In this document: positions 2,550 to 46,279 of the stretch, piece after piece
Layout: each line of letters opens with the position of its first letter
Numbering within the stretch: the stretch's first letter is position 1
Assembly: GCF_001660815.1 (NCBI RefSeq)
Contig: NZ_LYMI01000002.1
Location: 1 to 64,000, forward strand
Length of the DNA: 64,000 nt
Source of the DNA: Xanthomonas nasturtii
GTDB taxonomy: Bacteria > Pseudomonadota > Gammaproteobacteria > Xanthomonadales > Xanthomonadaceae
Reading direction: 5' to 3'
The notes under the pieces: generated by a model
Told to the model about the DNA's origin: nothing
What the model saw: the letters and a program-made list of their open reading frames with translations, nothing else
Database searches by the model: none
Program-made: the position numbers and the translations under genes

Positions 2550-4919
2550 TTACGGCTTCACCTGCTCGTTGAACAGCTTGAAGATGCGCTTGTACTCGTC
2601 CAGCCACGAATCGGCACGCGTGAAGCCGTGGCGTTCCAGCGGATATGGCGCCACCTGCCAATTGTCCTTGTGCAGTTCCATCAGCTTCTGGGTCATGTCC
2701 ACCGAGTCCTTGAAGAACACGTTGTCGTCGATCATGCCGTGCGCGATCAGCAGATGGTCGCGCAAGCCATCGGCGTAGTTGATCGGCGAGGAGGTCTTGT
2801 AGGCCTCCGGGTCGAGCTCGGGCGTGTTGAGGATGTTGGAGGTGTATTCGTGGTTGTACTGCATCCAGTCAGCGACCGGGCGCAGCGCCGCACCGGCCTT
2901 GAAGGTGCCGGGACTGCGGAACAGCGCCATGTAGGTCATGAAACCGCCGTACGAACCGCCATAGATGCCGGCGCGTGCGCGATCGCCCTGTTTGGTGGCG
3001 ACCAGCCAGTCCAGGCCGTCCAGATAATCTTCCAGCTCCGGGTGGCCCATGTTGCGGTAGATCGCGGTGCGCCAATCGCGGCCGTAGCCTTCGGAGGCGC
3101 GGTAGTCCAGATCCAGCACGATGTAGCCCTGCTGCACCAGCAGGTTGTGGAACATCTGCTCGCGGAAATACGGCGTGTAGCGCTCGGACACATTCTGCAG
3201 ATACCCGGCGCCGTGCACGAACATCACGATCGGATACTGCTTGCCCGGCTCGGGCGTCTTAGGCCCGTAATACTTGCCCCAGACCGTGCCGGCGCCGTGT
3301 TTGGACGGTACCTGCACGTACTGTGGCGCAATCCACGGCTGCGCCTTGAATGCAGGTGTGCGGGTGTCGGTGAGCACGGTGGCCTGGCCACCGGTGGCCG
3401 GCACCACGGCAAGTTGCGTCGGCAGATAGCTACCCGAGTAACTCACCAGCAACTGCTGCCCGTTCGGCGACAGGCTGAAGTCTTCCACGCCGTTCAACGC
3501 AGTGACTTCGGTGAGCTGATCGTTGCGCAGGTCGAGCTTGCAGACTTCGTAATCGCCCGGCCATTTCTGGTTGCACAGGAAGAACATGCCGCTGCCATCG
3601 GCGTTGGGCACCGGCCTCGACACTTCCCACTTGCCGCGCGTGCGCTGGCGCGGGTTGCCGTTGCCTTCCACGGTGTACAGCTGCGAATAGCCGGATTCTT
3701 CCGACAGCAGCCACAGCGTGCGGTTGTCCGGCAGCCAACCGAAATCGTTGAAGTCCCAGTTGATCCAGGCGCTATCGCTCAGGCGGTGACGCGGTTGCAG
3801 CATGGCGTTGTCCAGGTCCACGCTGGCGATCCAGCGGTCCTTGTTGTCCACCGCACGGATTTCCACCGCCACGTTGCGGCCATCGTCGCTCCAGTGCACC
3901 GCAGGGCCGCTGCCGTCGCCATCGCTTTCCACGCGCACCGCGCGGTTGCCCTTGAGTGCATCGCCCTTTGCCGCCTTGCGCAATGCGGCCAGCGGGTCGG
4001 TAGCGATGCCGGGGAGTGGATCGAACGACAGCGACTTGGCCGTGCCCGCACTGACATCCACCAGCCACAGTGCGTGCGCCACCGGTGCGTTGCGGCCAAC
4101 GCGGGTGCGCGTTTCCTGGAATTCTTCGTAACCGGATTCGGTCACGTATCTGGGCATCTTGCCGGCCTGGCCTTCTTCGGCATTCCTGGCCTGGGTCACC
4201 ACCAGCAGATGTCGACCGTTCGGCGACAACGCACTGTCGACGATCTCCACCTCATCGCCCAGATACACCGGTGCTGCCGCACGCGTGGCATCGGCGCGGC
4301 GCCAGGCGTCTTCCTGCATGCGCAGTGCGTCGCGTTGCTCGCGGTCGCGGCGCAAGGTGGCCAGCGTGGCCAGTTGCTGCTCGCGCAGCACATCGGCCTT
4401 GGGGGCGGCGTTGGGGTCGCGCTCGGCCTTGACCACCGCCACCTGCGCGGTGCCGCCATCGGCGCGCCAGTGGTACCAGTTGTTGCCCGCGCGCCAGATC
4501 GCACCGCCGTCGCTGGCGAACTGCGGACGCGATTCGGTCTCGTTGCTGCGGGTCAGCTGGGTCAGCGCACCGGAGCGCAGATCGCGCAGGAAAATGTCGC
4601 CGTTACGCGCGAACAGCATGCGCTGACGGGTTGCGTCGTAACTGGGGTTTGCCGCATCCAGGCCGGCGCGGGCGGTGTCGGCCACACGTGCGGCGGTGCC
4701 GCCGCCGGTGTTCTGGCGATAGGTGTCGCGCACCGGGCTGCCATCGCGCTTGAGCAGGTATTGCACCTGTTTGCCGTCCCATTGCCACCAGGCCTGGTCC
4801 ACCGAGGGCCCGATCCAGTCCGGGTCGGCCATCGCCTGTTCGATGGTGAGCGGGGCGGCAGACTGCGCATGCGCAGTGGCGGCCAGCAGCAGAAGGGTCA
4901 ACGGCAACAATCTGGGCAT
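2550..4919 (-). CDS. Secreted S9-family dipeptidyl/acylaminoacyl peptidase
   Basis: 789 residues from ATG at 4919. That start gives a clean signal peptide (MPRLLPLTLLLLAATAHAQ); starting further upstream would bury it. Residues to about 540 form the beta-propeller-type N-terminal domain. The alpha/beta-hydrolase domain follows, with nucleophile Ser656 in YGGSYGGF, an Asp near 730 in GMIDDN and a His near 763 in ERHGFT. The order and spacing match prolyl oligopeptidase family S9 (subfamily S9B/C). It probably trims N-terminal dipeptides or short peptides in the periplasm. It is monocistronic, with divergent promoters shared with the pigment ligase. Confidence 0.9.
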   Translation of the reverse strand: MPRLLPLTLLLLAATAHAQSAAPLTIEQAMADPDWIGPSVDQAWWQWDGKQVQYLLKRDGSPVRDTYRQNTGGGTAARVADTARAGLDAANPSYDATRQRMLFARNGDIFLRDLRSGALTQLTRSNETESRPQFASDGGAIWRAGNNWYHWRADGGTAQVAVVKAERDPNAAPKADVLREQQLATLATLRRDREQRDALRMQEDAWRRADATRAAAPVYLGDEVEIVDSALSPNGRHLLVVTQARNAEEGQAGKMPRYVTESGYEEFQETRTRVGRNAPVAHALWLVDVSAGTAKSLSFDPLPGIATDPLAALRKAAKGDALKGNRAVRVESDGDGSGPAVHWSDDGRNVAVEIRAVDNKDRWIASVDLDNAMLQPRHRLSDSAWINWDFNDFGWLPDNRTLWLLSEESGYSQLYTVEGNGNPRQRTRGKWEVSRPVPNADGSGMFFLCNQKWPGDYEVCKLDLRNDQLTEVTALNGVEDFSLSPNGQQLLVSYSGSYLPTQLAVVPATGGQATVLTDTRTPAFKAQPWIAPQYVQVPSKHGAGTVWGKYYGPKTPEPGKQYPIVMFVHGAGYLQNVSERYTPYFREQMFHNLLVQQGYIVLDLDYRASEGYGRDWRTAIYRNMGHPELEDYLDGLDWLVATKQGDRARAGIYGGSYGGFMTYMALFRSPGTFKAGAALRPVADWMQYNHEYTSNILNTPELDPEAYKTSSPINYADGLRDHLLIAHGMIDDNVFFKDSVDMTQKLMELHKDNWQVAPYPLERHGFTRADSWLDEYKRIFKLFNEQVKP

Positions 4920-43799: not shown

Positions 43800-44843
43800 A
43801 TGTCCGCAACACCGCTTGAGCGCATCAAGATCTTGGAGCCGCGTCACCCGAACCGCTCCACCGCCATCATCAATGGCGAAACCTCCGGCATCCTCAACTG
43901 GAACGACATCCCGTACCCGTCCTTCTATCGGGCCTACAAGGAGCTGTCGACCAACTTCTGGATCCCTGACGAGGTGGACATGAAGGGCGACGCGCGCCAG
44001 TACAACGAGCTGTCGGCGCGCGAAAAGAATGCCTACGATTCGATCATCGGTTTGCTGGCCACGCTGGATTCGCCGCAGACGCGCTTCATCTACAACGTCG
44101 CCGAATACATCACCGACCCGGCTGCGCATGCCAATGCCGCGATCATCGGCCAGCAGGAAGTGATCCATAACGAGAGCTACAGCTACGTGCTGGCCTCGAT
44201 CACCGGCCTGGCTGACCAGAACCGCGTGTTCGAGCTTGCGCGCACGCACCCGACCATCATCAAGCGTAACGCGCCGATCATGGGCGCCTACGACGATTTC
44301 CTGCGCGACAAGACGGCTGAAACGCTGATCCGCGCGCTGATCCAGTCCTCGATCCTGGAAGGCATCAACTTCTATTCCGGCTTTGCGTATTTCTACAATC
44401 TGGTCCGCCAGAACCGCATGACCGGCACCGGCAAGATCATCAGCTTCATCAACCGCGACGAGCTGGCCCACTCCAAGTTCATCAGCGAGCTGATTCGCGC
44501 CATCATCGGCGAGAACCAGGCGCTGCAGGGCGATGAGCTCACCGATTACGTGCACAAGGCCTTCGAGCACGCGATCGATCTGGAAACGGTGTGGACCGCC
44601 GAAGTGCTGGACGGCATCGACGGCATCGATGTGGACGAGATGATCCGCTACGTGAAGTACCGCGCCAACAAGATGGCCGGCATGCTCGGCATCGAGAAGC
44701 TGTACGAAGGCGCCAACGACAACGTGATGCCGTGGATCAAGGCCTACGCCGACAACTTCACCGAGACCAAGACCGACTTCTTCGAGATGCGCAATGCCTC
44801 GTACAAGAAGACCAATTCGGATAACGGCTTCGACGATCTGTAA
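43800..44843 (+). CDS. nrdB: Ribonucleoside-diphosphate reductase, beta subunit
   Basis: 347 residues. Metal ligands appear as LATLDSPQT (Asp), EVIHNESY (Glu, His) and INRDELAHSKF (Glu, His). The radical Tyr is present four residues after the first His (HNESY), so this is a Tyr-type and not a Phe-type (class Ic) subunit. The C-terminal tail NSDNGFDDL matches the peptide that docks on NrdA. It provides the diferric-tyrosyl radical. It is followed 41 bases later by the AT-richer DUF3800 gene. Confidence 0.94.
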   Translation: MSATPLERIKILEPRHPNRSTAIINGETSGILNWNDIPYPSFYRAYKELSTNFWIPDEVDMKGDARQYNELSAREKNAYDSIIGLLATLDSPQTRFIYNVAEYITDPAAHANAAIIGQQEVIHNESYSYVLASITGLADQNRVFELARTHPTIIKRNAPIMGAYDDFLRDKTAETLIRALIQSSILEGINFYSGFAYFYNLVRQNRMTGTGKIISFINRDELAHSKFISELIRAIIGENQALQGDELTDYVHKAFEHAIDLETVWTAEVLDGIDGIDVDEMIRYVKYRANKMAGMLGIEKLYEGANDNVMPWIKAYADNFTETKTDFFEMRNASYKKTNSDNGFDDL

Positions 44844-44884
44844 GAATTTCTGCCGCTCATATCTCCAATTACCTGCGAGCTCAT

Positions 44885-45583
44885 ATGAGATTTGAGGTGT
44901 ACTGCGATGAGGCGAATCCAGACGTCCTAACGTCTGCTAGTCCGCGTGCGCGTTACCTCATGATCGGAAGCCTTTGGCTTCCACAGGAAGTTCGTAATGA
45001 GCTTAAATCGCGAATTGGCGACCTTCGAAAACGACATGAAGCCTGGGGCGAGATCAAGTGGAGCAAGGTTGCGCCTAATCGCCGCGACTTCTACGTAGAG
45101 CTGGTTGACATCTTCTTCGCATATGGCGAGAACCTTCGTTTTCGATGTATTGCGGTTGATCGGACACAAATTGATCTTTCGTTACATGACGATGATGCGG
45201 AGCTGGGGTTTTACAAGTTCTACTACCAGCTTCTTCATCACTGGATTCTTGATTTTAATGATTATCGAATCTTTTGTGACGCGAAGAGTAATCGCGATTC
45301 GAAGCGCCTACCTGTCCTCGCCCAGTGTCTGTCTCGTGCAAACTTGAGCTCGAATATTGAGAGTGTTCAGTCCTTACCGTCTAACGAAGTAGTTCTGATC
45401 CAGATGTGTGATTTGTTGCTGGGAGCGGCTAGTAGCAAGATCAACTCTACCCTTACGCCTAACACTGCGAAGTTCACCGTCGTTAGCCGTATTGAAAGCG
45501 CATTGGGTCGCGAACTTGGTTCAACCAGCAAAGGCGAGGAGAAATTCAACATCTTCAAGATTCGACTTAACGGAGGGTGGTGA
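44885..45583 (+). CDS. DUF3800-type protein, first gene of an insert in the nrd operon
   Basis: 232 residues. It opens with FEVYCDEANPD, the D-E motif near the N-terminus that marks DUF3800 proteins, followed by YLMIGSLWLP and EIKWSKV. A later acidic motif is YRIFCDAKSNRDSKRL, and VVLIQMCDLLLGA precedes the C-terminus. The family is predicted to have an RNase H-like nuclease fold and often lies among defence or mobile genes; its activity is not established. Base composition is visibly richer in A and T than nrdB before it and the flavodoxin after it, pointing to acquisition. It overlaps the next start by one base (TGATG). Confidence 0.8.
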   Translation: MRFEVYCDEANPDVLTSASPRARYLMIGSLWLPQEVRNELKSRIGDLRKRHEAWGEIKWSKVAPNRRDFYVELVDIFFAYGENLRFRCIAVDRTQIDLSLHDDDAELGFYKFYYQLLHHWILDFNDYRIFCDAKSNRDSKRLPVLAQCLSRANLSSNIESVQSLPSNEVVLIQMCDLLLGAASSKINSTLTPNTAKFTVVSRIESALGRELGSTSKGEEKFNIFKIRLNGGW

Positions 45584-46053
45584 TGTCGTTGCCTCCGTTG
45601 GTCAAGTACGAAACTTCTGCCGAGTACCGACAACACTACGAACGCGTCTACTGCCGCGGCAATATACAGACACCAGACGAGATCCGAGTCTACTTCGATG
45701 CAAGAAAATTTGGCCATGCGTTCTACGAGAGTGCAGGGCGAGATGGACAGAAGGATACTTTTTCAGAAGTAAGGGCGCAGCGAATCGACTGGATTCAGGC
45801 GACCCTTACACATCCGGATGCCAATCTATTTCAAGGCTGGGATAAAACTGCCGGACAGGTTGACCCCACCCGCCGAGTGGCGGTGGTCTATGAAGATTTT
45901 GTGGTCGTGATTGCACTGTCGCTCAAGCAAGATTCGTTACTAAAGGCCAACTTCATCACGTGCTACCAAGCAGATAGCAGCATAGGAAAGATTCGAAGTT
46001 CGCCGACTTGGTCTCGCGAAGAATGCGTTCGCTCGCTTACGAAAACCAAATAG
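45583..46053 (+). CDS. Unknown protein paired with DUF3800, possible small-nuclease fold
   Basis: 156 residues from ATG at 45583, with GGAGGG at 45572-45577; the start shares a base with the upstream stop, so the pair is coupled. The middle (ARKFGHAFYESA, then EVRAQRIDWIQATLTHPDA, then RRVAVVYEDFVVVIAL and NFITCYQAD) resembles the His-helix-strand pattern of phage-borne barnase/EndoU/RelE-type nucleases. This is a weak resemblance by eye only. Composition is AT-rich like its partner. If the fold is right, the pair could be a toxin-like or defence module. Confidence 0.6.
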   Translation: MSLPPLVKYETSAEYRQHYERVYCRGNIQTPDEIRVYFDARKFGHAFYESAGRDGQKDTFSEVRAQRIDWIQATLTHPDANLFQGWDKTAGQVDPTRRVAVVYEDFVVVIALSLKQDSLLKANFITCYQADSSIGKIRSSPTWSREECVRSLTKTK

Positions 46054-46065
46054 CAGGCGAAAAAA

Positions 46066-46097
46066 GGCCGCTGATTCGCTACGCGGGTTCAGCGGCC
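46066..46097. terminator. Stem-loop ending the inserted gene pair
   Basis: GGCCGCTGA and TCAGCGGCC form a 9-bp stem 13 bases after the stop of the 156-residue protein, preceded by an A-run (46060-46065). It is a plausible terminator for the insert and for a minus-strand transcript. Confidence 0.6.
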
Positions 46098-46279
46098 GAG
46101 ACCTCGATAGGTTCAAAGCCGATGGGCAGTGAACTCGAGGCGGAGCTTAGCTCAGCCACCGTTAGAGTCAAGTGCGCTTGGCGCAGCGGCAAACCCCCAA
46201 GAAGCCCGAGAAGCTAATGGAATTTGCAACCCGTTGTTTTTAATAAGAAATATTCCTGAACCCATTAATCATTAAGCAA

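Follow-up and report, generated by a model that had tools for sequence, protein, structure and literature searches.

The 64,000-nucleotide (nt) stretch of the Xanthomonas nasturtii genome analysed here (contig NZ_LYMI01000002.1, positions 1 to 64,000; hereafter the window) carries, between nrdB and the flavodoxin–thioredoxin genes, two genes, A and B, accompanied by a predicted gene for a small structured RNA on the opposite strand (Table 1). A sequence-only reading of the same DNA had correctly described the two genes, their TGATG overlap and their location. It had also taken gene A for a DUF3800 gene, which Pfam confirms (PF12686, E 1.8e-8, 35.7 bits against a gathering threshold of 21), and had called the pair AT-rich, as borne out by a GC content of 49.4% over its 1169 nt against a window mean of 65.5%; only 2 of 629 sliding windows of 1169 nt, those over the pair included, reach a GC content this low.

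The adjacent, overlapping genes A and B match the PADLOC models M04A (E 3.2e-73) and M04B (E 7.5e-66) so strongly that the pair is already a catalogued candidate defence system, PDC-M04, where PDC presumably stands for phage defence candidate; the name PDC-M04 was not found in the literature searched. The earlier proposal of a toxin–antitoxin or anti-phage module is partly supported, in that the pair belongs to a library covering both known and candidate defence systems and recurs as a mobile unit. What that proposal overlooked is the third part of the module, the predicted RNA gene. The stem-loop said to close the pair does exist (46066–46097), but its T-run (46065–46060) lies on the minus strand, so that it resembles the terminator of a convergent transcript rather than that of the operon. 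An integron attC site, considered by eye, was dropped once this T-run was found.

Table 1. Genes and RNA features of the module in the window
Feature	Position	Strand	Description
Gene A, DUF3800 protein, 232 aa	44885..45583	+	PADLOC PDC-M04A; RNase HII-like fold predicted
Gene B, 156 aa	45583..46053	+	PADLOC PDC-M04B; RelE/BECR-like fold predicted, weakly
Class I RNA, 74 nt	46137-46064	-	Convergent with the genes; H1 hairpin, probable GGY/RCC pseudoknot, terminator-like H3
Promoter-like site of the RNA	46171-46144	-	TTGACT (46171-46166), 16-nt spacer, TAAGCT (46149-46144); 8/12 consensus bases
H3 hairpin and U-run	46097-46060	-	Intrinsic-terminator-like RNA 3' end, from sequence

Recurrence of the pair and its linkage to the RNA

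A DUF3800-based scan of 84,980 species genomes returned 241 relatives, the best 80 of which were kept, and a further 19 came from viral contigs. In 94 of these 99 loci B comes directly after A, its frame being short or broken in two of the 94 (L054 and L114). The remaining five are accounted for by two contig ends (L078 and L110) and a partial A (L148), all without an RNA match, and by two broken pairs, L073 and L122, which retain the RNA. As expected of a module, the pair turns up in unrelated surroundings: in 33 of the 94 loci it lies between an HsdS-like gene upstream, present within 3 kb in 34 loci, and an HsdR-like gene downstream, present within 3.5 kb in 40, as called by BLAST with a few representatives; the remaining contexts are mixed. 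The suggested tie to deoxynucleotide supply is not supported, as nrdB lies upstream in only four Xanthomonas loci and one Luteimonas locus of the 94.

A covariance model, R1, built from 52 of the loci, scores the window RNA at 93.5 bits, as the sole match in the genome at E ≤ 1, and recovers the RNA in all 91 A and B loci tested (84/84 among L051–L138 and 7/7 in the L139–L149 group; L145–L147, which resemble L144, lie outside this count). Because the model-building loci match by construction, independent tests weigh more. Among 35 genus genomes, the RNA occurs in exactly the six that have the pair. Across 369 class genomes, B was found in eight and the RNA in ten, including all six with a strong B match, one of which (G140) retains only a fragment of B, with no A found; the two weak B matches belong to the class II subtype described below. 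Three RNA-only class genomes hold faint gene remnants, recognized by BLAST (L153), at E 0.01 (L158) or by eye (L154). Two candidate members were rejected: the RNA-only locus L159 (29.7 bits), which by eye lies within a coding frame and is likely a chance match, and L167, whose match of only 28 bits was not counted. Among 297 family genomes the RNA matches in five: three also have the pair (two within the genus, the third a Luteimonas-type copy), a fourth holds remnants and the fifth match is weak.

The RNA is more conserved than the proteins, at 96–97% identity where B is at 68–72%. Asymmetric loss was set aside as evidence for an antitoxin, as target size alone accounts for it. A promoter-like site with at least 9 of 12 consensus bases precedes the RNA in 65% of 102 loci, against 6.6% of mononucleotide shuffles, the window's own site scoring 8. 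The seven distant viral loci tested (the L139–L149 group) all have the RNA on the sense strand, and it is therefore not just an antisense transcript or an operon terminator; on this ground, and since the RNA of many loci falls entirely past the B stop codon, antisense regulation of B was rejected as a general mechanism.

Paired positions of the proposed RNA structure are kept in 96.5% of cells, against 89.0% in shuffles, and ten pairs show double changes, in an alignment of 80 distinct rows that was fitted to the structure and contains five weak second matches. Covariation in the same rows is 0.219 against 0.090, a value reached by none of 500 shuffles, while slid controls drop to 24–41% paired. 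A free alignment, A6, agrees, with 95.6% paired and covariation of 0.251 against 0.104. Pairing is lowest in helix 2, at 82%, owing to a second RNA form with a shorter loop. A GGY motif ahead of H3 pairs with RCC in the H3 loop, as in an H-type pseudoknot; the pair 39–54 is CG in 46 rows, UA in 27 and UG in 3, with none broken and 4 gapped. All three GGY/RCC pairs are kept in every ungapped row, one covarying and two never varying, in an RNA that is probably pseudoknotted. No Rfam 15 family matches the class I RNA in the window and 24 further loci, and the Rfam DUF3800 RNA models gave no match at the pair-locus RNA in the window and 33 further loci (in each case 14 at the gathering threshold only).

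The predicted structure of protein A is RNase HII-like and has an RNase H fold; the acidic residues D8, E9, D132 and D176, candidates for its active site on sequence evidence, are invariant in 78 sequences. Protein B models weakly as RelE/BECR-like, with F43, H45, R64, W70 and T126 invariant. The window's B protein has no Pfam match, the best B family member in the Pfam scan reaches E 8.3e-5, and PBECR2 scores below its gathering threshold (14.4–19.4 bits against 27.1) in four of ten B homologues with a match. As had been suggested earlier, B does resemble RelE/barnase-type proteins, though weakly. No MazF-like toxin appeared among the VIA rows for B, an absence that carries no weight.

Within the genus, nrdB and flavodoxin flanks are present in all 35 genomes searched, 6 of which carry the full pair, while the other 29 have different cargo or none between them, an absence that supports the module proposal. 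A Luteimonas genome carries the pair at the same site. The gap measures 85–593 nt in 20 of the 35, with no open reading frame above 89 amino acids in those listed. Flavodoxin identity to that of the window is 88–95% in the 14 other cargo-bearing genomes and 58–63% in the 20 cargo-free ones, which links cargo to one of two flavodoxin alleles.

The nrdB–flavodoxin gap (44841–46279 in the window) is a variable cargo site: 15 of the 35 genomes carry cargo there, of five kinds, and in nine of these it is something other than the pair. A lone 278-amino-acid protein fills it in five species (L009, L010, L014, L015 and L016), and the L009 copy is ImmA/IrrE-like (PF06114, E 1.8e-13). Elsewhere the cargo encodes proteins of 331 (L011) and 325 (L012) amino acids and singletons of 243 (L008) and 237 (L013); at E 0.01, Pfam has no match for those of L011, L008 and L013.

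Class II loci, phage P1 and orphan RNAs in viruses

A second DUF3800 subtype, class II, is represented by L048 and L049, 35% and 27% identical to A, and by L168–L181, 34–47% identical to L048. These loci likewise have a B gene, and a convergent two-hairpin RNA of different sequence was seen in each of the nine loci, out of 17, that were read by eye, with paired changes in L048 and L181. Locus L184, assigned to another M04B model, showed no clear RNA by eye; A was not found at L183, and a scan with the B of L048 yielded no confirmed locus. At L179, a class II pair with its own RNA has a sub-threshold DUF3800-I RNA (4495–4632, 29.5 bits) a few hundred bases away.

Phage P1 is a class II member, with DUF3800 at rlfA (PF12686, E 1.2e-15) and the RNA after rlfB. 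RlfB matches the class I B model at E 3.1e-4 and, at E 1.7e-48, a mixed model that contains a near-identical copy. The P1 gene table places rlfA after repL, and the record annotates rlfA–rlfB as possibly associated with lytic replication, with no RNA annotated there. Near-identical P1-type copies occur in 121 of 5426 E. coli genomes, at 122 plasmid and 4 chromosomal places. The literature describes rlfA–rlfB as non-essential by CRISPR interference (PMC10695390) and notes an RNase H fold in RlfA (PMC3710099).

Viruses also carry the RNAs without the genes. A scan of viral contigs found the class I RNA in 10 stretches, 4 of them without the pair, and the class II RNA in at least 120, with 100 of 120 lacking the pair among the matches listed; a reversed-arm control pattern matched once, and searching with the second form of class I as the pattern returned no viral match. 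All four class I orphans are complete RNAs (60–89 bits), and no trace of A or B was found with them at E 0.01; for class II, the model-based search for remnants covered frames of at least 50 amino acids. A DUF3800 search in 27 records was positive in all three bearing the pair and in none of the other 24, a subset of the 107 orphan records. Of 87 distinct class II orphans, 25 have a tRNA gene within 500 nt, always including one on the orphan's own strand; the figure for random positions is 12.6%.

Among the complete genomes checked, orphans were found in phi3T (class II) and in Lacusarx and the Methanosarcina virus MetMV (both class I-like). The phi3T orphan is one base off the class II pattern and was found by BLAST with L190; those of Lacusarx and MetMV (L320, 1340–1432) retain the pseudoknot half and have a changed H1. 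An Rfam DUF3800-VIII RNA adjoins the class II orphan in phi3T (L318, 1099–1164) and in an IMG/VR contig (L236, 799–865), and no DUF3800 gene was found in either record. The T4 stable RNAs rnaC and rnaD (L316, 1409–1672, in the tRNA cluster) were rejected as candidates, matching neither the class II pattern nor R1 nor any Rfam DUF3800 RNA.

Candidate mechanism and relation to known systems

We consider it probable, short of firm conviction, that the three parts form an RNA-restrained dual-nuclease module and that phages with orphan RNAs counter it. In this module A would act as an RNase HII-like nuclease and B as a BECR/RelE-like ribonuclease, while an RNA (R), transcribed from its own promoter-like site, would bind A, B or an A–B complex and restrain nuclease activity. 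A phage that halts host transcription or removes R would free this activity, which may cut RNA, possibly tRNA or mRNA, and so abort the infection, and phages would respond by producing R from an orphan gene. Restraint resembling that by ToxI is the best reading of an RNA that lies beside two nuclease-like genes, has its own promoter-like site and is copied by gene-free phages. Escape of a phage from a type III system through RNA mimicry is described in PMC3475682; there, one wild-type repeat failed to neutralise the toxin, and escape came from expanded or recombined copies.

The RNA could instead be a required cofactor or scaffold of the active nuclease complex, the phage orphans then acting as decoys that titrate A and B or as sensed phage RNAs. 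We hold this unlikely: the RNA stands at every tested pair, and PMC10910872 ties another DUF3800 protein to Cas12a2 and DUF3800 to putative non-coding RNAs, but ours has no variable guide segment, being conserved over its full length in 52 sequences, and a permanently made activator would keep the system always on. It is improbable, in turn, that the pair and RNA are an addiction module stabilising prophages, plasmids and restriction–modification operons without direct phage sensing. The embedding in type I restriction–modification operons (33 of 94 loci) and in phage P1, with rlfA after repL, would suit such a unit, whereas gene-free orphan RNAs in many phages fit conflict between phages and the module better, though superinfection of lysogens also fits. 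That pair and RNA are housekeeping or decaying passengers, neutral cargo of a recombination-prone intergenic site, we regard as very improbable given covariation and conservation across loci of many phyla, even though cargo varies at the site and one of the six genus copies (G029) has a broken B frame.

Under RNA restraint, a two-gene candidate becomes a three-part system with a testable switch, P1 rlfA–rlfB gains a possible role, as do the orphan RNAs of DUF3800 type in phi3T and similar phages, and RNA-based counter-defence is open to test with laboratory phages of E. coli K-12 and B. subtilis. More tentatively, and as a possibility to which we give rather less than even weight, the module may exemplify a widespread, undescribed class of RNA-restrained dual-nuclease immunity (DUF3800, a BECR-like protein and an RNA) in many phyla, with phages widely carrying orphan RNA copies as counter-defence, two kinds in a row in phi3T. 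On that view the Rfam DUF3800 RNAs would comprise restraining RNAs of this kind together with their phage mimics.

The Rfam DUF3800 RNAs, which run from I to XI and of which I, VIII and IX were encountered here, are non-coding RNAs named after DUF3800 genes, and DUF3800-VIII lies beside class II orphans, but in the scanned stretches none of these models hits the RNA of either class. Such RNAs are called putative non-coding RNAs in the available part of PMC10910872, which gives no tested function for them. PADLOC PDC-M04 matches both proteins strongly, but its library consists of protein models, and no RNA family was found for PDC-M04. Phage P1 rlfA–rlfB shares the class II layout with the RNA after rlfB, whereas its annotation gives a possible association with lytic replication and lacks the RNA. 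In type III toxin–antitoxin systems such as ToxIN and CptIN, a tandem-repeat RNA array precedes the toxin gene and is co-transcribed with it. Here, by contrast, there are two proteins with other predicted folds and, in place of the tandem-repeat layout, a single-copy 74-nt RNA that lies downstream, is convergent with the genes and has its own promoter-like site; common to both are a nuclease, predicted in our case, and a small RNA, here probably pseudoknotted, and the RNA mimicry by phages known for type III (PMC3475682) would have its counterpart in the orphan RNAs.
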